A DNA stretch of 64,000 nucleotides from NCBI GenBank assembly GCA_021234155.1, contig JAJEKV010000777.1, positions 1 to 64,000 of the forward strand. Reading direction: 5' to 3'. Source of the DNA: Isoetes taiwanensis. Taxonomy: Eukaryota; Streptophyta; Lycopodiopsida; Isoetales; Isoetaceae. Position 1 is the stretch's first letter; every line of letters begins with the position of its first letter. Made by a program: the position numbers and the translations under genes. Of this stretch, positions 32,833 through 61,936 are shown in pieces. The notes under the pieces are model-generated. The model was not told the DNA's origin and made no database searches. It worked only from the letters and a program-made list of their open reading frames with translations.

Positions 32833-34670
32833 ATGGATAAGCCTAAAGCGGTTCTGTTGCAGAGCATATTGAGCATTTTTGTGTTTATTGTTTCAGCGAC
32901 AGGTTTGTGCGTTTGTAATCCTAAATAGCCGATCGTTAGTGTCATTTACTTTTTGGAACCCTTCTGTGGGTTTAAGTTTGAGGGTTTAGGAACAAGCCCG
33001 TTTTGCTATTTTCTAAAATCCATTCCTGATTTCGCTTATATTTACAGAGCCATATGCAAACATATTTATATAGCAAATCCAATACCGATTCATGCTTATA
33101 TTGCAGGGACGTTTGTTGGCGTAAATTATGGCACAGATGGAGACAACCTTCCCAGGCCACAGCAGGCTGTAGATTTTATGAAGAAGCAGGGCATAGGCCA
33201 AGTGAGAATATTTGATACCGATCCTGAGGTTTTAGGAGCTCTGGCAGGTACAAATATTCAAGTGATAGTTGGAATTCCAAACGAGGCCATTCTTAGTGTT
33301 GGAGCATCAAATGCAACAGCAGCTAACTGGGTAAAGAAAAATATAGTTCAATATTTACCCAATACCAACATCACCGGAATAGCTGTAGGTAGCCAAGTTC
33401 TCACAGATTACACCGCAGCTGCATCAGTTTTAGTCCAGACTATGAAATTTATCCAAGCTGCCCTTGTTGCTGCAAATCTCGATACCCAAATCAAGGTTTC
33501 TACACCCCATTCCACCGATTTGATCCTCGATGCATTTCCTCCCTCCCGTGGCTTTTTTAATCAAACTTATGCCAAGACTATTATGCTGCCTATGCTTGAT
33601 TTTCTGGTAGACACGGGCTCTTATTTTATGCTCAATATCTATCCCCAAGCAATCTATCAGCAGAACCAACAAGTTATGTCTATTGATTATGCCCTGTTTA
33701 GGCCTAACACAGGGGTTCTTGATTCCATAACAAATTTATTGTATACAAGTGTGTTTGATGCTGTGCTTGATGCTACATTCAGCGCCATGGCCGGTCTGAA
33801 TCATACTAACGTGCCTATTGTTGTTACTGAAACTGGTTGGCCTTCAAGGGGAGATATGAATGAAGCAGGAATTTCTACAGACAATGCTGCTACTTATAAC
33901 AACAATCTTGTTAAGCATGTTCTCAACAATACTGGAACACCTAGAAGGCCAGGAATTGCTATTAACACTTATGTATACGAAATCTTCAACGAAGATCGAA
34001 GGCAGGGGCCTACTTCTGAGAAGAACTATGGTATTTATTATCCAGACCAAACACCTATTTATACTCTTGATACCACAGGAACAGGGCTACTAGGGGTTAA
34101 CATTTCTACTGTAAGAACTTGGTGCATTGCCAAGCAAGGGATTAGCTCCAACAGCTTGCAGGCTGCTCTTGATTATGCATGTGGTCAAGGAGGTGCAGAC
34201 TGCTCGCTTATTCAGCCTGGAAAGAGTTGCTATTTTCCTGATAGTATTGGCGCTCATGCTTCTTATGCATTCAACAACTACTATCAAAAGAACATGAAGG
34301 CAACTGGCTCCTGTGATTTTGCTGGAGTTGCTACTCTTACCACCATTGATCCCAGTATGTGTTCTTTTCTCTGCTTCCAAGGTTATTTGCATGGTAATCA
34401 TATATCAATAAGTTGCTTAGTTATTTGTTTTCTAATTGCAGGTACTGGCCAATGTCAATACTTATCCAAGTAAGCAGATTTTTTCTGTCCTTTGCATTTT
34501 CCTCTTCCTTTATGCTTAATCTCTATGCTGATGATCCTGTTTTCTTTTGCAGTGTGCCTATTAATGCCAACTTGACAGTCTCTGACCCTCCTAAAAATGG
34601 CGGTTGTAACCTATTTCCTTCTATCAGTTCTTTGGCAATATCATTTTCACTACTGGCAGTAGTGATGTAA
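32833..34670 (+). CDS. GH17 glucan endo-1,3-beta-glucosidase with X8 (CBM43) domain, GPI-anchored type
   Basis: Four exons, 32833-32902, 33107-34354, 34442-34469 and 34553-34670, all with GT-AG borders, give 487 residues, a normal length for this plant family. Residues 1-23 are a signal peptide. Residues 24-350 are a GH17 barrel starting GTFVGVNYG; the nucleophile is E265 in VTETGWPSRGD. The acid/base position, normally Glu in VG(S/N)EV, is Gln at residue 120 (VGSQVL, codon CAA at 33394-33396). Residues 361-447 form an X8 callose-binding domain with all six cysteines (C363, C382, C389, C398, C426, C444); the last is in the 28-nt exon 3. The tail SISSLAISFSLLAVVM after NGGCN fits a GPI-attachment signal. 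Family members remodel callose at the cell wall or plasmodesmata. The frame is intact, so the gene looks maintained; whether it hydrolyses glucan is doubtful given Q120. I chose the ATG at 32833 because it yields the signal peptide and splices in phase. Confidence 0.92.
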
Positions 34671-39480: not shown

Positions 39481-39759
39481 TATTAGAATTCAAGCTGTAC
39501 ATTAGAGTACATTAGATACATTGATGTACATTAGATACATTGAAATGCATCATGTACATCTCTGGCCTTTGGCCTTCTGTTTCCGGTTGTTGGCCTTTCA
39601 GTGCCATTTATTCCATGTATTCATAGATTACATGCAATATAGAGAATATCCAGATTGTTCCTATTCTATTCCTATTGTGTCTCTTCCATTCTTGCTTTTG
39701 CTTTGGCTCACTCTGTGCTGCAGATTTGTATCAGTCCATAGCTGATACATTTTCCAACA
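39481..39759 (+). repeat. 5-prime LTR of the Copia element
   Basis: Starts TATTAGAATTCAAG where the right LTR has TGTTAAAATTCAAG, so the canonical TG is mutated, and ends CCAACA. It includes internally repeated ACATTAGATACATTG units; the right LTR has one extra nine-base unit. Confidence 0.95.
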
Positions 39760-39771
39760 TGGTATCAGAGC
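39760..39771 (+). other. Primer-binding site (initiator tRNA-Met type)
   Basis: TGGTATCAGAGC immediately follows the left LTR, the standard plant Copia primer site. Confidence 0.9.
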
Positions 39772-39856
39772 CTATTGGCATGTAAAGGGAAGTTCGACAA
39801 TAGAGGAACTTGGGAGAACCATTCTGGAAGAATACTTATCTGATCAAGAGAAGAGC

Positions 39857-40640
39857 ATGGAGACCAGATCTGTATCAGCAATTCTGAAGCCTCCTATGTT
39901 TGATGCAAAGGGTTTCAAGGCTGGAAGAAATCTATGAAGTTATATCTAATGGCAGAGGATGTCTGGGATATAGTGGATAGGTCTGAAACTAAACCAGAGA
40001 ATGTTGTGACAGCTGCTCAAATCAAGCTTCAAAAGGATTGGCAACGTCGTAATAATAGAGCAATGGCTTGCATATGTATGTGTCTTTCCAGAGCTATAGT
40101 CATGCAAGTAGATGTGGATCAGAGCAGCTATTCTCTTTGGATTTGGCTTGAAGATAAGTATGGCACCAAAACAGAAGGTGATGCATTTATATACACATAT
40201 TAGGAATTGCAAGTATGTGGAAGGAGCTGATCTGAATACACACATAAATCAAATGACGGAGATGTTGATATGTTGGCAGCAACGGATTCCAAGTATGCAG
40301 TTCCAGAGGGGCAACAAAAGCTCTAGTTATATGCTTCTCTTCCAAATTCATGGGAAACCTTTGTTGATTTCTTGACAGCTCAAAATAGTCTTTCAAGAGA
40401 TGAAGGAGATGCGCTTGAAAGGCAAAGTGGAGGATTCCAAGCCATCACAAGCTATGCTTGCACGAGGGAGGCAAGACAAAAAGCCTCATTACAAAAAGCA
40501 GTAGGATGGAAAGGTGGAAGGATGAAAAGGAGCACATCCCAAGAAAGTTTATGCAGTCGATTGTCCAGAGGAAAAGAACAAATCAGAGAAAGCACACCTA
40601 GTTGAGGCATATGTCATCAAAGGAGAGGCTTCTCTTGTTA
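39857..40640 (+). pseudogene. Copia gag relic
   Basis: The frame starts METRSVSAILKPPMFDAKGF, then shifts into an ORF (39934-40203) reading YLMAEDVWDIVDRS and LQKDWQRRNNRAMACICM, which matches the Copia gag pattern of a W-x-x-x-D segment followed by an A-x-x-x-I segment. At least three frame changes occur. I see no intact CCHC zinc knuckle before the protease. Confidence 0.75.
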
Positions 40641-40649
40641 TCAAATCAG

Positions 40650-41957
40650 ACCGGAGTCTCAGAATTAAAGGGGAAGCTTATGTTGTGGAAACAAGTGCAT
40701 GTGTTGCCGCTGGAAAGAAGGTTCTTACAGTGGATTCTGCATGCACATTAGTGATGCTGAAGGATATGGATATGTTCTCAAGTTATCAAAGTGACGAAAG
40801 TCTGGTGCAATTGAGAGATCACAGTGAAATTAAAGCACAAGGAATTGGTCAATATCATTTCACACTATTGAATGGTGAAAGTATAGTGCTTCCAAAAACC
40901 TTACATGTCCCGGAATTGCGGAAAAAACTTTTGTCAGTTGCATGTGCAGCATATGCTGGTCTGCAAGTTTTCTTTGATGATAAGGAAGTTCTTTTCTTGA
41001 ATAATGCATGAATTGAAGGGGATATAGTGGCCAAAGGCTCAAGACATGGCAATTTGTATGAGCTGGAGGTGTCTGATCCAAATCAGACCCTAGTAGTATC
41101 AGCCAAAGAAAAGGAGAAAGTGCTACTTTGGCACAAAAGGTACGGTCATGCTAATGTTTAGCTTTAGAAATAATGCAGCGGAAGAACATGGTTCATGGCA
41201 GACTCGAATCTTTGTGAAGCATGCATCCTTGGTAAGCACCCTCGCAGATCATTTGCAAGTATAGGCAGCAGAGCTAAGCAAGTGCTAGAGCTTGTCCACT
41301 CAGATCTTTGTGAACCAACATAGGTGTCTGCCGCATTGGTAAGGCAATATATTTCATCACGTTCATTGATGATTTTAGTCGGAAAACAATTGTCTATTTT
41401 CTAACCAAGAAACATGATGCTCTTGAGGCTTTTAAATTGTATAAAGCATGTGTAGAAAATCAGACAAGGAAGTGGATCAAGCAGTTGCGCACTGATGGTG
41501 GTGGAGAGTATCTTAGTGATCTCTTCCATGATACATGTGACCAGGCAGGGATCCAGCGCCAATGCACAACGAGGGCTACACTCCTCAACAAAATGGTGCT
41601 GCGGAGAGGAAGAATCACACTTTGTGCAATGCGACAAGAAGTATGCTTGCTGAAAGTCATTTGCCAAAGTATTTTTGGGCTGATGCAATTGTTGCAACAG
41701 TTCATGTGCAAAATAGATTGACCACAGTTGCATTGGATAATGAGATGACTCCAGAAGAAGCTTGGTTTGGAGAGAAACCGGATGTTTCTCATTTGCGCGC
41801 CTTTGGATGTACCGCTTATATACATGCACCTGAGCATTTGCGCAGAAAATTTGATGCCCGTAGCACCAAATGCACTTTTATTAGCTATGCGCCTAATCAT
41901 ATAGCATACTTGTTGTGGGATCAGGAGCGGAGAAGGTATACACCAACTCAGAAGTAG
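40650..41957 (+). pseudogene. Copia protease and integrase relic
   Basis: The protease region reads KKVLTVDSACTLVMLKD in place of the usual DSGAS(x)HM active site, so the catalytic Asp is kept but the loop is altered. It is followed by GIGQYHFTLLNG. The integrase region has LLWHKRYGHAN (zinc-binding H-H part), LVHSDLCEP (first catalytic Asp), RTDGGGEYLSDLF (second), GYTPQQNGAAERKNHTL (catalytic Glu) and HLRAFGCTAYIHAP. Stops and frameshifts near 41010, 41160 and 41560 break the reading. Confidence 0.85.
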
Positions 41958-42349
41958 TTTTTGATGAGTCAAATTCTATGTGTATTGATCCACTTGCAGA
42001 TGGAAACTTCATTCAAGACAAATATCTTGTTCTTGATGATCCTCCACTCGTTGAGCTTCAAGATTTGAGGCTGGACCAGCAGCAAGATATGCCTTTACCA
42101 GTGGATCTGCAACAACACATCAATGATGATCCACCTCATAATCAAGTTCTTCCTGATCCTCGGTTCATTGAAATGCCCCCCCTCCTCTGCTCAACCTTTG
42201 CCACCACGTAGCAGAACACATTCTCGTAAAGTTCTTGAAAATGATGAACTTAGTTTGGTTGAATGGTGTTGCTTGGCAGTGCAAGGTGAACCAGCAAGCA
42301 TTGAGGAAGCATGGGCTTCCTCCAAGCCCACATTGGAAATAGGGCGGTG

Positions 42350-43640
42350 AGGTAGAGCTCGCGATCCATGGATGCAAACCCGGTATGGGAACTTGCTGAT
42401 TTGCCCATTGGCGCGAGTGGATTGCAAATGGCTATTCAAAAAAAAGTACAAGGCTGATGACAGCCTTGGCAAGTATAAGGCTTGGCTAGTTGCTCGAGGT
42501 TTCAGCCAAGTCAAAGGTCTTGATTACGATGAGTCTTTTCACCGGGCATGAGAATGAATAGCTTGCGTGTTTTGCTTGCCTTAGGAGCCAAATTGGATTG
42601 GGAAATTCATCAAATGGATGTGGATCGGCATTACGAATGGAGATCTTCTTGAGGACATCTATATGCTGCAACCTTCAGGTTTTGAAGTACCCGGCCAGGA
42701 AAACAAGGTATGTAAACTCTGGAAGGCCATTTATGGCTTAAAGCAGGCATCTTGTATTTGGTACAAGAAGTTTGATGATGCACTTAAGCATGAAGGATTT
42801 CAACTTGCTACAACAGATTCTAATGTTTACATCAAGTGCATGGGAGGTATGTATTTGATTTTAGTGCTATATGTGGATGATATGCTTGCAATGGGCAGCA
42901 ATCTTCTTGATGTTCAAGCACTTAAATCTAAACTAACTAGCAGGTTTAAGATGAAAGATTTGGGTGCAACTAGCTCTTTCTTGGGTATGCAGATACATCG
43001 TGATAGGAAGAAGAGGCTAATTCATTTCAGTTTGAGCAATTTCGCATGGCAGATTGTAAGCATGTTTCCACGCCACTGGAAGCTGGCATAAAATTATTTG
43101 AAGATGAACCTGTTTGTGACAATGTGCAGTCATCTTCTCTACCATATAGGCAGCTTGTTGGGAGTTTGATGTATCTCATGACCATAACACGACCTGATCG
43201 TCGTTTTGCTGTGCTTGCATTGAGTTAGTTTAACCACTGTTATGAGTTAAAGCATTGGCAGCTAGCAAAGCGTGTTCTTCGCTATTTGCAAGGAACAAAA
43301 TTCTCATTCCACTACAGGTAGCACATGAATGTTTTATGGAGGTGCAGTAGGGTGGATAAGCAAAAAGCAATCTGTTGTAGCACGATCTTCAGCAGAGGCA
43401 GAATACATTACTTTATCTACTGAACTTGCAGATCTTGTTTGGTATAATCGTTTGCTTGATGATGTTGGTATTTCTGCGCAGCAGCCTATTCATGTTTATG
43501 TGGACAACCAAAGTTGCATGAAAATGGCAGAGCGTCCAGGACATCATCCTCGGACAAAGCAGCAATCAATTCATTATTCTACTTGCCCACTGGTGCAATG
43601 GTTGCAGATATATTTACTAAGCCACTGGGTACACAAAAGT
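42350..43640 (+). pseudogene. Copia reverse transcriptase and RNase H relic
   Basis: Reads KARLVARGFSQ-like sequence near 42475, then EDIYMLQPSGFEVPGQENKV, AIYGLKQASCIWYKKFD, the polymerase active site YVDDM (about 42870), LGMQIHRDRKK, LVGSLMYLMTITRPD, and the RNase H end KKQSVVARSSAEAEY followed by HVYVDNQS. Order and motifs are typical of plant Copia; several frame changes and an internal stop at about 43228 leave it non-functional. Confidence 0.88.
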
Positions 43641-43700
43641 TTGTACAATTTAGATTAGCACTTGGTGTTATACCATTTCAGTAGCTTCAGATTATCCAGC

Positions 43701-43710
43701 TAAAGGGGAG
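43701..43710 (+). other. Polypurine tract
   Basis: TAAAGGGGAG directly precedes the right LTR and would prime plus-strand DNA synthesis. Confidence 0.8.
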
Positions 43711-43998
43711 TGTTAAAATTCAAGTTGTACATTAGAGTACATTAGATACATTAATGTACATTAGAGTACATTAGATACATTGAATTACATCATGTACATC
43801 TCTGGCCTTTGGTCTTCTGTTTTCGGTGGTTGACCTTTCAGTGCCATTTATTCCATATATTTATAGATTACATGCAATACAGAGAATATCCAGATTGTTC
43901 CTATTCTATTCCTATTGTGTCTCTTCCATTCTTTTTTCGCTTTGACTCACTCTGTGCTGCAAGTTTGTATCAATCCATAGCTGATATGTTTTTCAACA
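43711..43998 (+). repeat. 3-prime LTR of the Copia element
   Basis: Starts TGTTAAAATTC and ends TTTCAACA; 288 bases against 279 for the left copy. A TG...CA terminus is retained here. Confidence 0.95.
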
Positions 43999-44009
43999 AA
44001 GTATTCAGT

Positions 44010-44031
44010 GGGTAAAAGCACGCTGTGGTGT
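44010..44031 (+). repeat. Left terminal inverted repeat
   Basis: 22 bases starting GGGTAAAAGCACGC and ending TGTGGTGT, preceded by CAGT. It lies six bases beyond the Copia target duplication. Confidence 0.88.
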
Positions 44032-44065
44032 TCCAATTCGGCTGTCCCCCCTGTCCCCCCAAAAT

Positions 44066-44998
44066 GTGGCGTTGTATCCACCACTAATTATGGCACTGCT
44101 CAGCTGCCGTTATTTAAGAATAGAGTTGGGGGAAATTCTAATTTCAAAAACTAAAATTCAAATTCAAATTCCTATTCTTTGGCCCCTTCCTGTTCTTTGT
44201 CTACGTCCTGTTCTTTGGCTCCCTCCCTGCTGCAAGCTCCAATCCATTGTGGATATGGATGTCAATGAGGTAATCTGTCCACAAACTGGCATTTCAGACA
44301 GGAGAAAACGAAGAAGAACCAAGGAACAAGAAATGTTGAAGAAAAGACGGCAGAGGAAAAGAAGAAGAGAAGAAAAATTGGAGCTTGCAGAATTGGCAAA
44401 AGGATCCGGTTCATCAAGAAGTGCAAGCAGTAAACGCCGTATTGTCCTTAATTTGCTAACGTCTTTCTATAAACAGACCAGAAGAATGGAGGATAGCACG
44501 AAGAAAGAAATTTTACTTGATTTTTTGAGGGATATAACATTGGAAAAATTCATAGGTGAAGAATTAAAGGATTTGGAAGCCAAGAGCATCGTTATAAGGA
44601 GCCTCTGGGACTCCATGCAGACTGTCAAACTCTCTACCAGCAATGACTGCCTAGCAGCCAAGAATAGCTGCCTTGCAATGTCTGTACCATGCCATGCAGA
44701 TTCTGAAACAAGTGACAAAATCAGCCAGCGAGATCTTGGAAAGGTATTAGGTGTTCACCCAAGAAACCTGCAAAAGGCAAAGAAAAAAAGGGAAGAGATC
44801 GATTACAATGGTGGGAAATGGGTTTCTTACAAGAGGGCTAAAAGATTCGATGCAATTTCAGATGAACATATAGAAAAGATTCAAAAATTTTGGATTGAGA
44901 ACACCAGAGTGTCTCCTAACACAAAGGATGTTAGAACTAGAAGATTGGAGAGAAATGTAAGAGAAGAACATGCTGCCCACTATCTGGAGGAATCACAT
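44066..44998 (+). pseudogene. Transposase gene, exon 1 (N-terminal basic and HTH-like region)
   Basis: Open for 311 codons to a GT donor (GTTAGT at 44999) in phase 0. The start may be the ATG at 44066 or, more likely, 44255 (MDVNEVICPQ), since the first 63 codons look like non-coding sequence near the terminus. A strongly basic run (DRRKRRRTKEQ, then KKRRQRKRRREEK) would serve as a nuclear signal or DNA contact. SQRDLGKVLGVHPRNLQKAK looks like a helix-turn-helix. The end, TRVSPNTKDVR, then HAAHYLEESH, continues directly into exon 2 at 46863. This exon itself is intact; the gene is counted as a pseudogene because later exons are broken. Confidence 0.65.
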
Positions 44999-46862
44999 GT
45001 TAGTTTATTTCTGTTATTCATGTTTTCTTAGTTATGGTGCTTAGTGTGGTGGTTATTGTGTTGTACAGTGATTGTGGTGTACTGTATGCAACATGTGAAT
45101 TGTGTGTAGTTGATTCTAGTCTGAAATGCAATATTTAATATTTGGAATATTATTAGAACATGATAGAATTGAGTACTCCTTTACTGGGTGTGTGTACAGT
45201 CTAAAAATATTTGAGAATGTTAACTAACTGATCCTGAGATACAAATTTTTGTTGAATAAAAATAATTTTTGTCGATTCAAGCACGACTTCCGTTGGAAAG
45301 TATGATATATTAAAAAAAGGATCTTATAAAATTTGGCTTTACAAAATTTGGCTTTCCATTGAAAGCTCTGTACTCGAGAACTAAATTTACATGTATGATT
45401 TCCTAAGCAACAGGAAATGCTGGTATGACTGGCTCGAGAACTGGTGCATCCAAAATTATTGTTTTCTGCACTAAACCATCTAAGCTTTTCTGCGGTCATC
45501 CCAATTTAACAGATGAGGTTTGCCGGTGCTTCCTCGCATCCCCCCGGTGGTAAGGCACGCAATTTGCCATTAAAACCCGCCAAGGCGAGTCGAGCGGACA
45601 AGTGACAGAGAACAAATATACCAGCTGCCCTTGTAGCAGCATGTAACATAAGCTCATGGACCTTGTCTAAGAGCTCTCTTCCTGATAATCGACTCCAAGC
45701 ATAGCCATTGAAGGCCCGGCATCCATTCGTTGTATGCCTTTAGGTTGGATTCGAATAAAGCCAAAGAAGGTGGATTTAGGCATATCCACCTTGGAGATTG
45801 ATCATGAGCCCCGTTTAACATGTGTCGAATGCCCTCCTCGCCACCCTACAATAGCCGTGAGTGTCCTACCATGTTGCCGAATGAACTTGTTGAATTGGCT
45901 AATTTGGAATGAAACGCCAAAAATCGACGTAGGAAGCAGGATTTAGGACCCGTGATCCTTTTCTAATGATTAGAAGAGGAATGTAATTATTATCGTGGTG
46001 TCTGAATTTCAGAAGTGTTTATGAGAGCGGGGCTAAGCAGATTTTTTATGTCGGGGCTAAATAGGATAAAAGTTGGTGTGGTGTGGTGTGGGTTGCGTTA
46101 TGTCCATGGTGTCATGTGGGTGTGTGCATGTTAATGTATGATATCGTGGATTCAATTTTATTTATTCCCCCTCACCCCACCACACCCCATCTATTCCACC
46201 ACCATAGACTACCACCACATCTTTTGCGACCACCACATTACCACCACATGCACACACATCCCACCACATCCCACGCCACACCCCTCCACCACCACCACCA
46301 CACTCCACCACCACCACATCACACCACAATCCACAACACCACACCACACCACCACCACTACACCCCCCCACCACACCACCACCACCACCACACTCCACCC
46401 ACACACCACCACGACCACCACACCCCCCACCACCACACCCACCACACCACATCATACCACCACACACCACTACACACACCACCACCACCACCCCCCACCA
46501 CCACGCCCCATCACCACACCACACACCACTCCACCACACACCACCACCACCACCCCCACCACCACCCCCACCCCCACCCCCACCACCACACCACACACCA
46601 CTCCACCACACTCCACCACCACCACACCCCACCACCACCACACACCACTCCACCATCCCCCACCACCACACTCCACCACCACTCCACACTCCACCATTTG
46701 GTGTATGGTGTGTGGTGAATGGTGTGGTGTGTGATGGGGTGTGGTGTGGGTACACAACACTAAGGTGCTCGTTCTGGTGAATATGATGAGTGTGGGGCAT
46801 GGTATGGTGCATGGTTTGGTGTGGTATACACATCCTAACAGTTTAGTGTTCATTTCATGCAG
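44999..46862 (+). other. Transposase intron containing the (CCA)n tract
   Basis: GTTAGT donor and TTTCATGCAG acceptor join two coding exons in phase 0, so this 1864-base segment is well supported as an intron. It includes non-repetitive sequence to about 46150 and then the CCA tract. A 91-codon - ORF at 45224-45499 inside it has no recognisable features. Confidence 0.65.
46160..46830 (+). repeat. (CCA)n tract with short complementary TGG tail, in transposase intron
   Basis: From about 46160 to 46697 the + strand is an irregular CCA, CCAC and CACCC repeat almost devoid of G. From 46697 to about 46830 it flips to TGG and GTGTGG-rich sequence. The two parts can pair, so a transcript would form a hairpin. 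Long ORFs on both strands here (His, Thr and Pro-rich, or Gly and Val-rich) are artefacts of the three-base periodicity. Confidence 0.9.
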
Positions 46863-48629
46863 ATGCTATTGTTCAAGAGGTTTCTGGACCAACATCCAGA
46901 AATTAAGATTCGTCTTCGAGCTTTTGAGAAGCTAAAACCCTGGTTTGTTGTGAAATTGAAGGACTTCAATAGTTGCTGTTGCATTCAACACGTGAGGATG
47001 CAAATGCTAGTGGATGGACTCAATGGGATGAGAACCAAACATCCGAAGAATTGCACTTGCACCTGCGATGTTTGTAGATCACATGAACTTGGTCAATGGG
47101 GCACACCAAGCATAAAAATTGCAAGTACTGAGGAAGCTTGTGGAGATCTATATTGTGTCCAAAGAGTAAATTAGATGAGTTTCACAAGAAGGCGTGCATC
47201 CTTGGAGATTGTGAGCTGTGTGGAATCAAGAAGTTTCAGACCTGTCCCATGGAAGGAAGTGGCAGTAACAGGAAAGTGAAATGGGAGTACATTGACTATG
47301 AAAAAAGACAACGTCTCGAGTTCTGGTAGGAGACTGACTCATCAGTACAATGAGACAGAACCCAAGGAGCTTCTGGATAAACTGAAAGAGCGTCTAAAAA
47401 TCTTTCCACTGCATAATTTCAGGTACCAATGGTAGGCAAAACAGTTTAAGGAGCTTCGAGAATCTCCCGGCCAGATGCATGTCTCGGTAGAGTGGATTTT
47501 GCAGAGAACTATACATTCAAGGAACAAGAGGAGGAGCAGTCGATGCGCTGGGTCAATAATCAGATTACCATTTTGGTTCAAATAACATATCAGTATGACT
47601 CAGTGGCAGATGAGATTATCAAGGAAACACATTACTATGTATCGATATAGGGGAACACGATACTTTGTTTCGCGGCAACACCGCTTCATGAAGCACCACA
47701 AATATCCGGGAGCGAAAGGAAGGGTTCCAAAGAGACATTATGTGTTTTCTGGATGAAAAACATCTCAATTCAAGGCTTCTAGACCATTTTACTTTGTGGC
47801 TAGGTACACAAAGCATTAATCGATGTCTATATGATGTGGATTTTTTTGGTTCTAACCACGGGAAAGGTGAACACGATGGCAAAGCTGCTGAGTTGAAGAG
47901 ATGGTTAAGACAACTGCAATTAAAATACAGCAAGATAAAATTGGGTAATGCTCATGAAGTGGTAGAAGTTGCCGAAGAGATGTTTATTTGTGGAACATCC
48001 GAAAGTGGATGAACACATCCGAAACCAAGAAGAGGAAGAATATAAAAAGGTTCTTTGGGAAGTCAAGGTGGAGGATATAGATAGAAAGAAAGCATGGGGT
48101 GCGAGAAAGGATTTTTGGACACTAGGCAAAATCCATTGTGTACATGCATTCAATCTGAATCTCCATTGCGGTTGCACACGAGGGAACTTTCATGCTTCCG
48201 CCTTCGCTTGGATGGCATGTGGGACAGTTGTGTGAACAAGCACCACGCTGATGATTGGAAACTTCAAGTTATTGTACCATCCTCCAATGTGCATGCCGAC
48301 ATTGAGGACCGTAAATCCAACAGTCCTTGTTCTCCTCCAATCCCACGATGTTAGCAGAGGCACTTAGAGTTGGTGATAATTTTGCCGCTGCTGTTCAAAG
48401 GGAATGATGAGGGTTCTGAATTTTGGATTACGATGTGCACAAAACCAAAATGGATAGTGGAAAAGACTTCCAACTCAATGGAACATGGTATCTCGCCGGT
48501 GATAGTGTCATAGAAGGTATGTATTACAAGAAGGGCGCAAGATCAACCGCCGCCTATGATCTTTGCAAGAAAGAAAGACGCTTTAGGCATAGTATTCACA
48601 ACACGATCCGTGCAATCGACTTCACATGA
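46863..48629 (+). pseudogene. Transposase gene, zinc-finger and DDE catalytic region
   Basis: After the acceptor the frame reads MLLFKRFLDQHPEIKIRLRA, FEKLKPWFVV, a CCCIQHV cluster and CTCTCDVC, a zinc-binding type arrangement. Frameshifts follow near 47155 and 47330. The catalytic core is recognisable in pieces: VDFAENYTFKEQE (first Asp, codon 47495-47497); FSG followed by a stop then KTSQFKASRPFYFVARY (47738-47805), where FSDG with the second Asp would be expected; and GSNHGKGEHDG (Glu codon 47869-47871). The C-terminal part reads FQLNGTWYLAGDSVIEGMYY and RFRHSIHN. This D-D-E order supports a cut-and-paste transposase. At least four lesions, including loss of the second Asp motif, make this copy inactive. 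Confidence 0.7.
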
Positions 48630-49109
48630 CACCAACTAAACGCCAAAACAGACTGTATATAGCTGGATCCTTTAGATGAGGAGAAAATTTTACTGAGAAT
48701 TTACCCAAGTTCTTTTCGATGATGATGAAATGTAAAACCATTCGTAGTTTTTAACTCATGTGAAGTTTTGTGCTTCAATTTGTGAAAATGAGTTTGTCTT
48801 GATTTCTTTGAAGTTTTGAATTCTTCTGAAACACTTGATTCCTTTGTTTGTGAGATGAATTGAATATGAATTTTCATTGAAATGAATCGAGGTTACAATA
48901 ACAATTATGTACATAAGAAAGATATACAGTGATTTAAGTACGAGGTGACTCATGCATGCACCCCAATACATATGTTCCTCTCAGTTCCAGTTTTTGTTGC
49001 TTCTAATCTTAAAACTTCAAGCATGAACACTCTAACATCAACTAGATCCTGGTCTGAAATGTCCACAACCTGCAGTTAACCACACTTTGTCAATAACAGA
49101 GTTTGGTTT

Positions 49110-52100
49110 GTCTGCTGCACTTAAGTTGACTTACTAGATCAGGCAACAATATATTCACTCCTTTCAAGTACCCCCTCACAAATTTGTGCATAAACGAACA
49201 TACGGCAGGGCCACATGAATGACCATCGGTTTGAAGAGGCGTTCTGGAAATTTTCACAACATCTGAGGTTGTAAAGCTGAAATTATTGTGTCCAAGCAAT
49301 TCCAGGAACCTGCACTCAAAGTTTGTTGTCATTGTGCCATAACAGCAAAATGCAATGAGCAAGCACTAACCTCTCAATATGTCTGCTTCTGCCATGCAAG
49401 CTCGAGCTATCAAAGTGATATATCCCTGGTTTAGATCTCAGGCGTAGACACGCTGCGGGTTTTACAATAAAATAAAACAGTCCAAATTGATGTCCATCAC
49501 AAGTGCAAAAACATGTAATTGGCACTTATCCGCATTCACATGTTTCCTTATTGTTTTGTAACTATTTGTGTCCTTGGACAATGTCGAAAGTGAAAAAAGA
49601 GGGTCAAAGAAATGAAAGGGGCTGGCTCATTCCTTGAGAATCAAGTAGTATTCCATGTATCCGCAAACATATGCATATCATCCGCACAACTCGATGATCA
49701 CAAATCGATGAAAGTATCACCTTGAGAAGAGGAGGACCAATTCATCATTGAACCCACAGATCGCTTCCAAAATTTTGATGTCTGTGGAGCTAATCAATTA
49801 CAGTTTCAGTTCCACTCAAAGACCACTTCCGGATGTGTATTTGGCTTTAGATAGTCGTGGACCGGCCAAGCTCTATCATCTCTAGTTCTAAACACACACG
49901 AGAACATTTGCTCACAATCCATTCAAATATTTTAAATCGAAAAAGTATAACACATATCATAGAAATTTTTTTACTTATATTGACTTTCAAAAAGTTTTTA
50001 CAAGATTCATTTATGAAAATACTTGTCGAGCATTTTCATGCGCTTGCGCTGACTCTTCGTAATCCCACATGTTCCACATTTGATGTTCCTTCACATAAGC
50101 CGGCACACTTTCTGCACCCGTAAGTCCCTCCTACCATGGTTTGAGTTGCTCCAAAAGGAAATTGGAATCCAACCCGTCGGGAGCAAAACTATTTGGACAT
50201 ATCATTGTTCTACCGGGTTGGCGTAACCCTTATATCGGCCGTCATCTATCAACAATGTGTTTGTCACCGGTATCTCCAAAATTTTCGGGTACACTTTGGA
50301 TGATCCATAAGGAAAATTGGCTTATTAACCACTTTTAATTTTGTGTTGGCAAATCATCCCGATTCCAAAAAAAAGAAATCTGCCCTTATATTCAAGCAAA
50401 GAACTTTCTCATCAACAAGTCAACATTACTCTTAGCCATGCCGACCACAATGCAATCTCAAATTTTGAAAAACACCATTCTAAGAACTCCCGTAATCCAG
50501 GCCCGAAACCGCTAACTTTGATGGTTCAATTTCTGGATGGTCACTTGCCCTACCGATGGGGGATCCTCTCTTTCAAGTCATAAAACTTGCCTAAAACCCC
50601 ATTAAAATCCGAACAAGGAGAATTTGGGTTAACCTCTTGGTTTTTCTTGGTTGAGGTTGTATTGGACTCGTTGGAGCGCCTCAGATCTTGTCCGTAACCC
50701 GGGGTTTCTTTTGTCAACTTCATCACCCGTGATCCCATTTGGCTCATGTTTAGCACCAAAACTTTTTTTTCGGTGAAAGGACCCCGCATTTAATGAATCT
50801 CAAGGGAATTAATTTCCCCCCCTAAATCAGATGCACTAGGAATCTCTTCAGTAATGGCTTCCGGTTGTAGGTAGCATTTATCTCTCAAAGAACATAATTG
50901 AAATGAGGAAGACCACAAAAATATACAAAAAATAAATCATGTATGTGGCATCGGTATTTTACTTGATGATGATCGATGATTGCTTTGACTATCCAAATTT
51001 CGTTTTGGAGTCTCCACGCCGTCAGCAGCTTGGATTGACTTTGGAGTATCAAATGGGGTGAATTCTAGGTACAACCGGGAGGTATCTTGCAGTCTCATAA
51101 CTGATCGATGCATGGATAACTGTTGGATATCCTTGGTCTCAAATTTCTGCAATTCTGCAAACACTAAGTCAGTAGACCTGCGGACAACATCAAGAAACAT
51201 TAGTTAAGGCACTTACTTGTGTCTATTGGTTCTTGTGGTACCACGAACACCAAAAGCCAAAACCATGTCTCGGGCCATAATGTGGGCAATAACGGGACTG
51301 CAGCTAGGTTCTAGAGTGTCGCAAAAACAAATTCAAAATCAATAGAGTCTTTAGACGAGGGTTAGAGATGATAATATTTACCTCAAATGGTGTGATAGAC
51401 ATGGAATGTGATACTGGTGACTGTATTCTGCTATCACAACTGGCAACATTTTACCCTCCCATTTCAGACAACGTCCACAAAATGGACAACCTTCATCACC
51501 CTCTTCTTACGCCTCGGCTTCTCAGAAGCATTGGAAGTGCAGGATCTAAAGGAGTGTCATGACCACTCACGCCGAAAAATCTCAAATCTTTGCATTCGAG
51601 GTAGCAGCTCCAGCAGAAGTCTTCACATGCCTTTAGCTCAATTTCAGCCGCTAATTCCTTCTTTAATTGTTTCAGCCCAGTGCAACATTGTACCATTTAG
51701 CTCTTCATCCTTTAGTTAGAAACACAACCCGAACACCCTCCGCCGCTGGATTTCTTTGCCATGATTGATTGCCATCCATTGTAAATCAGCTCTAACTCTC
51801 GATGCTTTATGCTCCATCAACTCAATCTTTCTTTTGATATTATTTTTCCTATCCTCGCTTGCTTGCAATCGCTTGCTTGCATCTATCAAACCTAGCTGAT
51901 GTTGCAGCCAACCATTCCTTCACAAGTCCGCCATAAGTCGCAAAACAAAACACTACGTGATATGTCACCTCCCAACATAGTAAGCCAATGATCGTTGGAA
52001 AACCACAATCACACACCACACAACACAAGGTAGCCCACACCACCACATACCACACACCACACAACATATGTCAAGACAAGATGCACACACACCACATTTG

Positions 52101-53300
52101 TGGTGGTGGTGGTGGTGGTGGTGTGGTGGTGGTGGGGTGGTGGTGGTGGTGGTGTGGTGGTGGTGGTGGTGTGGTGGTGGTGGTGGTGGTGGTGGTGGTG
52201 GGGTGTGGTGTGGGACATGGTGGAGTGTGGTGATGGGGGTGTGGTGGTGGGGTGTGGTGTGGTGGTGGTGGAGTGTGGGGTGTGGTGGGGTGTGGTGTGG
52301 TGGTGGTGGTGGATTGTGGTGGTGGTGGAGGAGTGTGTGGTGGTGGTGGTGGGTGTGGTGGTGGGAGGAGTGTGGTGGTGGTGTGGTGGGAGATGGTAGA
52401 TGGAGTGTAGTGGTGGGAGATGGTGGGGTGTGGTGTGGGACATGGTGGATGCCAACAACTCACCACCACCACACATACCTCATCTATCATTCCGCATCCA
52501 TTGCACGAAATGCCCCACAGATGGCATCATAGAGACACAACATGACAATACTGCCAACATGATGCAAAATGGTAGTAGACATACCGATTCTTGAAGTGGA
52601 TTTGATGTTACCTTTTTCAGGTTGATAGAAACAATCTAGATCAAGCTTGAGATTTTTTTCTATTGTAACACAACTAATAATTGAACATACCCGCAATGGC
52701 ATATTTTGGTCTCGTAACATTGCTCGCTTTTTCTGCTTTTGATTGTGAGTTCATATTGAATGTGTGGTCTAGAGGAACCCGATTTGGTTTTTTCCTTATC
52801 ATCTTCATCATCCCCGCCACTTTTACTATTTTCCTCCTCGCCAAGTTGGATTTGCCTATGCTTTCTCTTTGGTCTAGAAGAACCGGCCCTCGCTTCTCAT
52901 CGGGGAGTTTTATAATAATCCGAGAAGCTCTTCCAATTAACATCGTCCCCTTTATATGCAAATAATAAGCCACGCCTGTGTTCCAGAGCCATTCCACCCC
53001 ATGTATGTGGCTTCCCTGTAATTTTTTTGTAAATTTGCATGTAACTCTTTGTATTGTTCATTGCTCGATTCTTCAACCCGCATAAGAAAAACATATGCCT
53101 TAATTTTTCGCTTTGAACAAAACATTTGGGGAAAATACCTCAGCCAGATTTATTTGGAACTCGTCACCCCAAAGCTTCTTTAGATCTTCGTGGGGCACAA
53201 TCTTTGTTTGAGGAGAGATTTCATCGGTAACCGGGCCGGGCGCTCAATTCTCGACTCCATTAGGGTTCAATCGGCAAGAAGCGCAAAAACGTAAGAAGAG
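49110..53300 (-). pseudogene. Second transposon gene: Cys-rich segment plus Ulp1-type (C48) cysteine protease
   Basis: Exons on - can be traced by splice sites. About 53230-53139 ends INLAE before GTATTT. The exon near 53090-52691 includes KPHTWGGMALEHRRGLLFAY and ends before GTATGT. About 51710-51383 includes CPFCGRCLKW, then HQYHIPC, a zinc-finger-like Cys-His cluster, ending before GTAAAT. About 51178-50937 starts after TTGTCCGCAG. The protease core comes last: GHQFGLFYFIVKP (His), GIYHFDSSS (Asp) to 49371, an intron (49370-49310), then LQTDGHSCGPAVCSFM with the oxyanion Gln and nucleophile Cys. The His-Asp-Gln-Cys order is that of Ulp1/SENP deSUMOylases, which several plant transposons carry. 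Stops in the 53.2 and 52.9 kb exons and the 50.1-50.8 kb part indicate decay. The TGG tract lies in one of its introns. Confidence 0.65.
51995..52470 (-). repeat. (CCA)n tract (TGG on +) with short complementary segment, in the protease-gene intron
   Basis: On + this reads CCACAC-rich sequence to 52095, then TGG and TGGTGTGG repeats to about 52446. In the direction of the host gene (-) this is a long (CCA)n tract followed by a short GTGG stretch, the same arrangement and sense as the tract at 46160-46830. Large ORFs on both strands here are artefacts of the repeat. Confidence 0.9.
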
Positions 53301-53465
53301 GTGATTATTTCTTAATTCAAAAGGTGGACAATGACGGGCATAAAATTCAAAATAACCGACGCCATTAATTCAAGACTCCGCAATCTCTCCGCTTCTGGTA
53401 TGCACCACCCGATTCTACCACAAAGGTGGTGCCAAAATGTGGCGCCAAAATGCACGTTTTTTGAT

Positions 53466-53487
53466 ACACCACAGCGTGCTTTTACCC
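53466..53487 (-). repeat. Right terminal inverted repeat
   Basis: Exact reverse complement of 44010-44031, ending GCGTGCTTTTACCC on + and followed by CAGT. Confidence 0.88.
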
Positions 53488-53571
53488 CAGTACATGAAGA
53501 TCTTACTCCATTTCAGCTCAGTAAAAGAGGGGAAGAGCTAGCCAAGATGAGAGTAGCAAGACATCCCAAAA

Positions 53572-58140: not shown

Positions 58141-58899
58141 GCAAATTTCGGCTTGGTGCATTTGGACCATGCAACCTTGACCACAACATGCTCCTCAGTC
58201 CCACCCCAAATAAAATTACGGACAATAGTAACAATCACCTAAAATTTTGACAGAGAAGCCGGAAGGGCAGAGGCCATATAGACATGGGAATTACTTAAAA
58301 CATGCTTAGCAACCGTTATTCGCGCTGGCAGAGAGAGCTTAGCAGTATTCCACCAAAATAAATGCTTACGCAACCCTTCTATGATAATATCCCAAGCATC
58401 AGAGGTAGAAATATGAATGCTCACAGGAATACCAAGAAGTTTAGTAGCCATCCCATGAGGAAGCACCTTCCAAGGAAACTCCGCAACACAAGGAGGCACA
58501 ACCCCATCGAGCGTCCATAATGCAGAACACTTTGGCCAACCAACAAGAACTCCAGATGCCAAAGAGAAAGTATCAAGAAGAAGCTTTGCATTCTGAAGAT
58601 TGTCCGTATCGGCAACAAGAAAGAGGAACGTGTCATCAGCATACTGGTTACAAATCTCCTGTGAACCATCCTCCATACTCAACCCCTGCACTATCCCATC
58701 CTGCACGGCCTTAGCAAATAGCTGTGAGAGGACCTCAGCTACTATTGTGAACAAAAGTGGAGCTAATGGGCATCCTTGGCGGACACCTCACCCAACTGAA
58801 AAAACAGTGGAGGGTTCCCCCTGAAATAACACAGTAGACCGTGCCGAGATATGGAGCTTCATAACATCACTGGTGAACTGCTGACCAAAGCCCAATGTT
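58141..58899 (-). pseudogene. LINE reverse transcriptase fragment (inverted segment)
   Basis: On - it reads LTLGFGQQFTSDV, then GVRQGCPLAPLLFTIVAEVL, NQYADDTFLFL (YADD active site at 58632-58643), LLDTFSLASGVLVGWPKC, and FIWGGTEEH. These are the RT palm and thumb landmarks of plant L1 elements. Stops occur near 58790 and 58238. The upstream endonuclease and ORF1 are absent. Confidence 0.85.
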
Positions 58900-60191
58900 A
58901 AGAGGCTTTTTTCCAAAAATTTCCAATGTACACTTCCATTTGCAGAGTAAAATTCTAATTTCTAAATTCATTTGGAGGATCCTCAAGGATATGGGTGACT
59001 CACCTGGAGTGCGGTTGGTGAGGCAGTCACTTGCACATTGTGTTCCTTTTGGGAAAGCTTCATTAAAACCGCTTCTTCCTTGGAGTCTCTTTTATCAGCT
59101 ATGCCCTTTTCCTAATGCCTCTCCTTTTCTGAAAGGCTTGCTGGAGTCTTGGGAGACAATACGGACCTTATTTCATATTGATCTTGTTGCATGTCATCAG
59201 TTGAGTGCCCCTTGTTGGTGGATACCTGTGGAAAATAATCTTCCACTTTGTGCCTCGGTTCATCCATTAACTCAACGGCGCTGGAGGTTAGCAGGAATCT
59301 TGACAGTTGCGGCATGGTATAATTCTGGCCAGTTAGCGACATGGCAAATCTTTCAAACCAAATTCTCATTGTCTCGATGGGACAGACCTATTTTGCAAAA
59401 GATTGGTAGTACTCTGCCATTGGTTGCTCCAGAGGATATTGAAGGGTGCATGTGGGTTTCCCACCAGAGTGTTCATGAGCATAGGCTTGTGAACTCTATG
59501 TATAGGCTGCTTGTCAATAGTGATATCCTTCCGCCATCCACTAGGTGGTCCCTTCAGCTTTCACCTCCTAATTGGAGACGTATGTGGACTTGGGCTTGGG
59601 ATAAACTACTCCATCCTAAGGTGGCGGTGCTTTGGTGGCAGATTCTTCACAGATGCCCTCATGTGAACGTGCTTGTCCACAGATTTGATCCTCGAGTGTC
59701 AGCACTCTGCCCACTGTGCAAGCAAAGGGACGAGACCATTGAGCATTGTTTCTTTTTATGTGTTCATCTCCAGCCTGTTTGGTCTTGGCTGCTCTCTCTT
59801 TTTCATGTGACATTGACAAGTCCGCAAGTGCTTCTGGCTATTTATCCGGATGCTTGGAATAAGTTGCGGAGCCAAGCATTTCATTTAGCATCAGGATAGT
59901 TGTTGTGGTCAATCTGGAAGCGCAGAAGACTGTGTATCTTTCAGGGTTTGGATATTCCTCCTGCAGTTGTCCTCCAGGACGCACAAGCTAGAATCGCTAA
60001 GGCATACCATTGTTCTTCGCTTGCTCCTACCAAGCAACAGTTGATATTTGAGTCTTATTTGAGTGTGCTGTCTTATGCATAGGCTGGTGGTTCTACTCAG
60101 TGGATCATGATTATCCTCTGAGACTTTATTCCTGCCTCTGCATTTGTATTTTGCTTTTGGCTTGGAGTTTCAATAAAGTTCATCGTTCTTC
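58900..60191 (+). pseudogene. LINE C-terminal region with RT zinc-binding domain
   Basis: A 1005-base open frame on + reads WRRMWTWAWDKLLHPKVAVL, WWQILHRCPHVNV, CPLCKQRDETIEHCFFLCVH, then VWSWLLSLF. This is the zf-RVT domain (CxxC...HxxxxC) that ends plant L1 ORF2. One stop at 59897 separates LLWSIWKRRRLCIFQGLDIP, the usual last helix. The 3-prime UTR and poly(A) follow. Confidence 0.85.
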
Positions 60192-60773: not shown

Positions 60774-61216
60774 CGAAAGGGCAAATTGGTACAAACCTCA
60801 GGTGATAATCTATCACATCTTTTAATCAATTCAAAGTTTGAGAGGTCTTCTGGGCCTAGTGAGTGGAAAGTTGTTAGAGAGATAGCAAAAAAATGGAAAA
60901 TCAATAAGTATGGATCCAACTTAGGCTATGATGCATGAAATTGAAATAGTTACATCATGCATATGTTGGAAGTTATGTAAACTAATGAATGCTATTTCTT
61001 ATTCATAGGAATATGATCTCTGCTGCAAGTTCTATGGAGACAAATTTTCAATATATGACTTTAAATTGTTGAGATCCTATCTACTATCATAACTTTCCAT
61101 AAGTTTAATGTATTATTATGATGTTTGAGATATAAATAATGATGCATATAAATAATGTATTGTATCACGAGTTAGGGTTATAGCATTGGAATTTATTTTA
61201 ATATTATCATAGTTTT

Positions 61217-61936
61217 ATGCATTTAATATTTCATAGAAGTTGCACTAATGGCTTTTTGTTCATAGATGTTGAAGGTGTCCCTGAAACATATTCATTTCTT
61301 ACAAGAAGGCTTATTATACTTGACATGAATGGAGTCCTTCTAAAATGTGAGCATCAAGAGTATAACAAGTATAAGATAATAATTAGGCCAAATTGCACGG
61401 AATCTATAAATGAACTTTTGAAGTTTGCTGAAGTTGGAATTTGGACCACAATGTCGGACACTGCCCTCATGATTTGTTTGAAACAAATTGTCCAAAATGA
61501 TGATGTTTTCAAATTTTTATGGACTCAGCATAAGTGCACAAACTTGGGCTACAATAAGCTCTCTCATAAAAAGCCATTCCTTATTAAAGACCTCAGAAAG
61601 GTATGGAGAAGGTATCCAGAGTACAATGCTCATAATACTATAATGGTTGATGATGATTGCAGAAAATCTTTTAGAAATCCAGAATATGTGGTGTTGCATC
61701 CTTATATATATTCTGGAGATGAATCGGACATGTTTCTTATGGATATATTGTTACCATATTTACAAGAAGCATGTACATCCACAGATACACAAGAATACTT
61801 ACGTTGTAACATCAAAGATGAAGCTTGCCAGAGCAATCCAATGAAATTCAAAGATGTCTGGACCATATCTCTGAGGTTTGGCAACCTAGAGAAAGGGTTG
61901 GTTCGGCTCCAGGATCCGAAACAAATACTACTATAA
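61217..61936 (+). CDS. FCP1/NIF-like HAD phosphatase domain
   Basis: A 239-codon open frame. ATG at 61217 is one possible start; two ATAG acceptors (61236, 61265) suggest it is really a 3-prime exon. HAD landmarks appear in order: RLIILDMNGVLL (nucleophile D36 kept, but the usual second Asp of DxD is Asn38), IWTTMSD (motif II, IWT), FLIKDLRKVW (motif III Lys) and MVDDDCRKSFRNP (motif IV acidic pair), followed by VVLHPY. FCP1-like enzymes dephosphorylate the Pol II CTD and other phosphoproteins. The DxN form occurs in some plant FCP1-like proteins, to my recollection, and its activity is uncertain. The domain is intact, but whether the gene is complete depends on the LINE-split ORF upstream. 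Confidence 0.7.
   Translation: MHLIFHRSCTNGFLFIDVEGVPETYSFLTRRLIILDMNGVLLKCEHQEYNKYKIIIRPNCTESINELLKFAEVGIWTTMSDTALMICLKQIVQNDDVFKFLWTQHKCTNLGYNKLSHKKPFLIKDLRKVWRRYPEYNAHNTIMVDDDCRKSFRNPEYVVLHPYIYSGDESDMFLMDILLPYLQEACTSTDTQEYLRCNIKDEACQSNPMKFKDVWTISLRFGNLEKGLVRLQDPKQILL

Follow-up and report, generated by a model that had tools for sequence, protein, structure and literature searches.

What kind of mobile element lies at positions 44010 to 53487 of this Isoetes taiwanensis contig, and what might the coding strand opposite its transposase do for it? The stretch analyzed (the window) comprises the first 64,000 nucleotides of contig JAJEKV010000777.1, and the original prediction, made from the letters alone, described a decayed copy of an autonomous two-gene DNA transposon with a DDE transposase and a convergent Ulp1-protease gene, possibly Sola-related or undescribed. 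The window element is one decayed member of a large family of DNA transposons. This is a cut-and-paste transposon with terminal inverted repeats (TIRs), present as two diverged families, A (to which the window copy belongs) and B (its sister). A large DNA transposon, its 4-bp target site duplication and a conserved multi-domain helper are very well supported. On the reading we favor, at a probability of about 40%, the transposon is Sola-like in its duplication, and its helper probably binds motif arrays inside the element and counters host silencing, a function proposed from sequence alone.

The two ends of the window element carry GGGTAAAAGCACGCTGTGGTGT in inverted orientation, forming a perfect 22-bp TIR, with CAGT immediately outside each end, as predicted.

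44006..44009, unstranded: left 4-bp target site duplication, CAGT
44010..44031, + strand: left TIR, 22 bp
53466..53487, − strand: right TIR, 22 bp
53488..53491, unstranded: right 4-bp target site duplication, CAGT

A search of the host genome for these termini, as the prediction had suggested, recovered 452 exact occurrences of GGGTAAAAGCACGC (the first 14 bases of the TIR) in 1.66 Gb, 222 forward and 230 reverse, whereas the reversed control had 0. Positions of the first 100 of the 452 were used for picking copies, and copies with both ends were collected. Seventeen family-A copies were inspected for a target site duplication: the window copy, seven found by transposase exon and nine pairs of 14-mer ends approximately 9.5–10.1 kb apart. 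Four of them (L039, L041, L049, and L051) were dropped, having no readable end pair in the stretch taken. All 13 copies with both ends readable are flanked by a 4-bp direct duplication (CAGT, TGAT, ATCT, TTAG, AAGA, CATG, TACT, CCAA, ACGT, AAAA, AAAG, CATG, and TTAT), of which AAAA is located in an A-run and is weak taken alone; no longer duplication fits these 13 copies. The duplicated sequences differ among copies, indicating no fixed target. Two copies, L043 and L061, inserted into other repeats (by eye, the coding region of another transposon and a Copia reverse transcriptase, respectively), so that paralogous empty sites are present elsewhere in the genome. The flanks of L043 joined through a single TGAT matched at 216 of 216 positions over exactly 216 bases, with 96–97% identity, at five loci (C1007, C1080, C908, C1104, and C1048), and the occupied locus matched the same joined-flank query as 1–110 and 107–216. 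Likewise, the flanks of L061 with a single AAGA matched over 142 positions and 142 bases at 96% identity at two C1061 loci, the occupied copy matching as 3–54 and 51–144. Because the paralogous empty sites of both copies fit, the duplication length is shown to be 4 bp, the value proposed in the original prediction.

Transposase exon 1 yielded 152 genome-wide matches from 7501 first-look candidates, 150 of which were scored, and identity among the matches listed ranged from 60 to 100%. Blocks common to the window copy and eight other copies are mostly 86–93% identical, with lower values in the repeat-rich introns. Six of the listed exon-1 matches are open and just 60–62% identical; these define sister family B. 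Three family-B copies were taken, and both ends were present in one (L055, with L056 and L060), a 14.1-kb element with ends GGGTGAAAGCATGTTGTAGTGG and ATAT on either side, a further 4-bp duplication. The main common blocks of the B copies are approximately 89–98% identical, and some of the B copies taken have damaged or missing transposase exons. One sequence, L057:1–5700, holds two family-B left ends approximately 3.94 kb apart with near-identical left flanks, which suggests a local duplication or an assembly artifact.

The plus-strand gene had been described as carrying basic, zinc and D...D...E-type blocks, and each was recognized: a basic exon 1, Cys clusters, and the blocks VDFAENY, SDG.ASQFK, and GKGEHDG.

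44255..44998, + strand: transposase exon 1, basic N terminus
44999..46862, + strand: transposase intron 1, GT..AG, predicted from sequence
46863..48680, + strand: transposase exon 2, frameshifted in the window copy, with Cys clusters, catalytic core and C-terminal domain
D 47495, D about 47752, E 47869: predicted catalytic residues in window exon 2

Exon 2 of the window copy is broken by frameshifts, and four other copies are open for 440, 486, 525, and 526 amino acids. The description of the window element as a decayed copy is supported. In a five-row alignment (A2), D217, D302, E341, and D343 are invariant in 5/5 rows, as are VDF.ENY, DG..SQFK, and KGEHDG; in a 15-row alignment with many partial rows (A1), some decayed rows are changed beside the catalytic residues. 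Either E341 or D343 could supply the third acidic residue, both being invariant in A2 and the Asp lying two residues past the Glu. The D-84-D-38-E spacing suits a predicted RNase H core, flanked on either side by Cys clusters and followed by a C-terminal domain. Profile and structure-database searches gave no match of the transposase above chance in Pfam, NCBIfam, or PHROGs, and chance-level matches alone among PDB chains. Pfam transposase families searched against L079, L080, and L082 gave no match at E up to 5, and viral and prokaryote contigs scanned with one 440-amino acid transposase contained no relative. Unnamed cnidarian proteins, which we take to have the three catalytic blocks, are an unconfirmed lead only.

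On the minus strand, convergent to the transposase, lie no fewer than five coding segments that have sister-family counterparts, in one or two genes. The predicted convergent, autonomous-type layout is supported, and the two-gene description is incomplete. From 5' to 3', the order is N terminus, predicted array-bearing intron, coiled coil, RING-like motif, NIF/FCP1-like HAD domain, and Ulp1; the RING-like motif and NIF/FCP1-like domain, like the sister family and the motif arrays, go beyond the earlier account.

52674..53266, − strand: conserved N-terminal exons with a lysine/arginine-rich stretch
51762..52008, − strand: coiled-coil segment (B counterpart by eye only)
51381..51581, − strand: RING-like zinc motif (weak Pfam RING matches, all below cut-off)
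50014..50821, − strand: NIF/FCP1-like HAD phosphatase domain, degraded in the window copy
49090..49930, − strand: Ulp1 (C48) protease domain, degraded in the window copy

The HAD domain is best read in L041, a family-A copy with an intact open frame, which matches PF03031 at 2e-16 (60.5 bits against a cut-off of 21.8) and, like other family-A domains, has D-x-N-G and LLIDDS motifs; the family-B copy L054 also passes (9e-5, 22.6 bits against the same cut-off of 21.8), and dullard-like and HAD-IIID profiles match below their cut-offs. The nucleophile Asp is kept in the family-A copies L041, L045, L047, and the window, with the stretch out of frame in L043. The predicted Ulp1 core was confirmed with a two-exon model, in which an L041 exon and a window exon were joined across a short GT-AG intron; this model matched PF02902 at E=4.4e-7 (30.4 bits against a cut-off of 20.7), retained His-Asp-Gln-Cys, and found a SENP5 chain in PDB at E=0.0057. 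Single Ulp1 exons fell below the PF02902 cut-off, the two-exon A model alone passing, and two family-B stretches had no C48 match; the window Ulp1 is itself damaged, HHW reading HQF. In tblastn, the N terminus, RING-like motif, NIF domain, and Ulp1 domain of family A each match family B, with best E values between 7e-66 and 2e-8 and a short Ulp1 N-terminal piece reaching 0.06 only. The RING-like motif is 55% identical to that of L055 over 42 residues, and the coiled coil resembles its B counterpart by eye, tblastn having found none. The NIF exon of family A ends in an in-frame stop or a possible GT donor, and family B offers no clear answer on one versus two genes. Elsewhere in the window, at 61202–61936 (+ strand), lies a separate NIF/FCP1-like gene (PF03031, 6.4e-19) that is 26% identical to the HAD domain of the transposon and has dozens of host matches at 60–95% identity; it could represent a host family near the source of the captured domain or the cargo of another element.

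To gauge constraint, families A and B were compared. Exon 1 gave a dN/dS of 0.14–0.15, and the proportions of synonymous (pS) and nonsynonymous (pN) differences were 0.87–0.89 and 0.16–0.22 in the catalytic core, 0.80–0.81 and 0.35–0.38 in NIF, and 0.67–0.75 and 0.37–0.46 in Ulp1, in copies whose partial decay pushes values toward neutrality. With amino-acid change well below synonymous change in the four measured stretches, the helper appears to be kept by selection rather than carried as a passenger. A convergent transposase match lies within 15 kb of 51 of 150 Ulp1 matches, and a single one of the 150 has a transposase match solely in another arrangement; these matches do not equate to copies, some being two exons of one copy, and the Ulp1 list and the transposase list (118 matches, with three short second-fragment matches dropped) are both samples of larger families. 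Among 23 hand-picked family-A-like NIF matches, 13 have an Ulp1 match on the same strand no more than 6 kb downstream, and nine have a convergent transposase match.

The heptamer TGTGGTG corresponds to bases 15–21 of the family-A terminus and recurs in dense arrays within the element, accompanied by related motifs near the ends.

46190..46740, unstranded: CACCACA/TGTGGTG array, intron 1 (27 heptamers; shuffle mean 12.5, maximum 25 of 200)
52080..52440, unstranded: TGTGGTG array, predicted minus-gene intron (19 heptamers; shuffle mean 8.9, maximum 16 of 200)
44062..44072, + strand: left subterminal AAATGTGGCGT motif
53435..53445, + strand: right subterminal AAATGTGGCGC motif

Counted on both strands, the heptamer occurs 59 times in the window element versus eight times in the remaining 54.5 kb of the window. 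Both A intron arrays, though CCA-rich, exceed all 200 shuffles. In the family-B element L055, 56 heptamers were counted, whereas dinucleotide shuffling gave a mean of 1.5 and at most 5 in 200 shuffles; most of the 56 lie in three arrays of unrelated repeat units in which TGTGGTG ranks first, third, and first among heptamers. Counted across complete elements, it is the fourth most frequent heptamer in the window copy and in L055 and the most frequent one in L053. Each A intron array has a counterpart among the B arrays in the same predicted intron, one in transposase intron 1 and the other in the minus-gene intron that precedes the coiled coil, and intron-1 clusters are present in all six longer A copies and all three B copies examined. 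The motif AAATGTGGYG is found near the left end in five of six A copies and three of three B copies. It is likewise found near the right end in five of six A copies and in L055, the only family-B element for which a right end is available. In L055, the most frequent heptamers of all are of the AGATTCC type; these are absent from the top ranks in L053, which suggests an unrelated nested repeat.

On the reading we favor, the transposase would bind the TIR and the subterminal AAATGTGGYG motifs and carry out excision and strand transfer, and the minus-strand protein, or the transposase, would bind the intronic TGTGGTG arrays. The SUMO-protease domain, with the HAD domain as a phosphatase or binding module, would remove SUMO or phosphate from host silencing proteins, and with these stripped, the element would stay expressed and mobile. 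Such a role would be that of the VANC proteins, the Ulp1-bearing KIU kind included, for Arabidopsis VANDAL elements of the Mutator superfamily. In published descriptions, VANC21 binds a nine-base motif that forms dense same-orientation arrays with fast turnover in introns and other non-coding parts (PMC5735166), and some VANC genes (KIU) carry Ulp1 and act likewise, the role of Ulp1 there being unknown (PMC13317346). The Isoetes element resembles VANDAL/KIU elements in pairing a transposase with a separate helper, some VANDAL/KIU helpers likewise having Ulp1, and in a short motif densely arrayed in introns or non-coding parts, although with less uniform orientation. Unlike VANDAL elements, which have degenerate TIRs, it has a perfect 22-bp TIR; unlike VANC helpers, its helper also has NIF and RING-like parts; and unlike Mutator elements, it has no MULE (Mutator-like element) transposase match in Pfam. 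The more specific proposal that a superfamily outside Mutator independently evolved sequence-guided anti-silencing, with a RING-like/HAD/SUMO-protease helper targeted to intronic TGTGGTG arrays, we regard as unlikely.

Several observations weigh against the anti-silencing reading. Both family-B copies read have Tyr in place of the HAD nucleophile, and one RING-like Cys is lost in both B copies read, so that those activities may not be needed and the HAD and RING-like parts may instead be binding modules. Several A–B comparisons are saturated in dS, those of Ulp1 span 36–87 codons only, and 98 of 150 Ulp1 matches have no transposase match nearby among the matches listed. The A intron arrays are largely CCA-triplet microsatellites, and the B TIR has TGTAGTG rather than the exact heptamer. 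Furthermore, one B array is of mixed orientation, unlike the same-orientation arrays of VANC21, and the intron-1 heptamers of A point the opposite way to those of B, favoring recognition as double-stranded DNA over RNA.

Ranking next after an anti-silencing helper, and in our view rather unlikely, is action of the minus-strand protein on the transposase itself, which it might de-SUMOylate, dephosphorylate, stabilize, or join as a second DNA-binding subunit like Spm TnpA, with the arrays as binding sites, for this protein or for the transposase, in end assembly. Spm TnpA offers a precedent, as an activator correlated with demethylation (PMC10398659), the array heptamer is part of the A TIR and also occurs in B subterminal motifs, and A and B have retained segments of both genes, which lie together; yet two arrays are placed approximately 2 kb and 1 kb inward from the ends, and a third one, seen in B, lies deep inside, which is odd for end assembly. 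It is improbable, and more so than action on the transposase, that the transposase works alone, the NIF/Ulp1 gene being captured host cargo without benefit and the arrays microsatellite growth. Gene capture is common in plant transposons, the separate NIF-like gene at 61202–61936 has many host relatives, and damaged or missing transposase exons in some B copies would fit such cargo. Nevertheless, amino-acid change well below synonymous change between families approximately 60% identical in exon 1, a segment order conserved in A and B, and the recurrence of one heptamer, within the same introns, in arrays whose units are unrelated all speak against it.

Ulp1 domains are carried by some CACTA and Zisupton/KDZ elements. 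Zisupton elements make 8-bp duplications, unlike the 4 bp found here, and no match to any transposase family was obtained in Pfam. The original prediction held that the element fits neither these two groups nor the MULEs. For CACTA, this agrees with a review that gives a 3-bp duplication, and CACTA/G ends likewise differ from the GGG ends of the Isoetes element. For MULEs, the plant members also differ in the same review, with 7–12 bp, but another paper gives 4–10 bp for MuDR and its prokaryotic kin together (the IS256/MuDR group), and since 4 bp falls inside the range of this wider group, length alone cannot exclude MuDR. Other makers of 4-bp duplications are piggyBac, IS481EU, Ginger, and some PHIS and MuDR-type elements. 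Ginger1 shares the 4-bp duplication and has Ulp1 in some members, there fused to the transposase; however, it is described with CCGG/CCGT targets, TGT ends, and a Gypsy-type integrase, whereas the Isoetes element has varied targets, GGG ends, no integrase match, and Ulp1 on the opposite strand. Compared with NIF/FCP1-like HAD proteins, the Isoetes domain differs in lying inside a transposon next to Ulp1 and in having lost its nucleophile in two B copies. Membership in the Sola superfamily with an unusual helper gene, which is compatible with the other readings, approaches an even chance. A review describes Sola elements with a 4-bp duplication, variable termini, sizes of 2–9 kb (some over 15 kb), and presence in a moss, and the superfamily is entered in the repeat table of a fern genome. 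The likeness is nonetheless by description only, in a duplication length, ends, and size of which the first is not unique to Sola; the review gives a DDD triad, whereas the third conserved residue here may be E341 rather than D343; and a NIF plus Ulp1 helper is not mentioned in the accessible Sola descriptions. Within the open-access literature as far as accessible, no paper was found that describes a DNA transposon combining Ulp1 with a NIF or phosphatase domain, nor any on Sola, Ulp1, and transposon together.

The transposon family is well anchored: its duplication length is proven, it comprises two diverged lineages, and 452 exact ends were counted. Its transposase is unmatched in the libraries searched, and its helper combines SUMO-protease and phosphatase-like domains. 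As the helper is common to both lineages, and so is the motif despite arrays of different repeats, the role of Ulp1 in transposons becomes testable here. If a superfamily outside Mutator did evolve such anti-silencing independently, removal of SUMO and phosphate would be a general transposon route to defeat plant silencing, with the array as a portable address.

Other features of the window were noted alongside the element. A Copia-type retrotransposon occupies 39483–44008, with two long terminal repeat (LTR) stretches 89% identical over 297 bases, and by eye the DNA transposon begins approximately 10 bp past its 3' LTR. An open reading frame at 32929–34473 (+ strand) encodes a Glycosyl hydrolase family 17 and X8 domain. 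Along with the NIF and Copia sequences and a PPR-like sequence recognized by eye, it fits a land-plant host. At 58239–59899, a long interspersed nuclear element (LINE)-like reverse transcriptase on the − strand adjoins, by eye, a zinc-finger RVT-like reading frame on the + strand.

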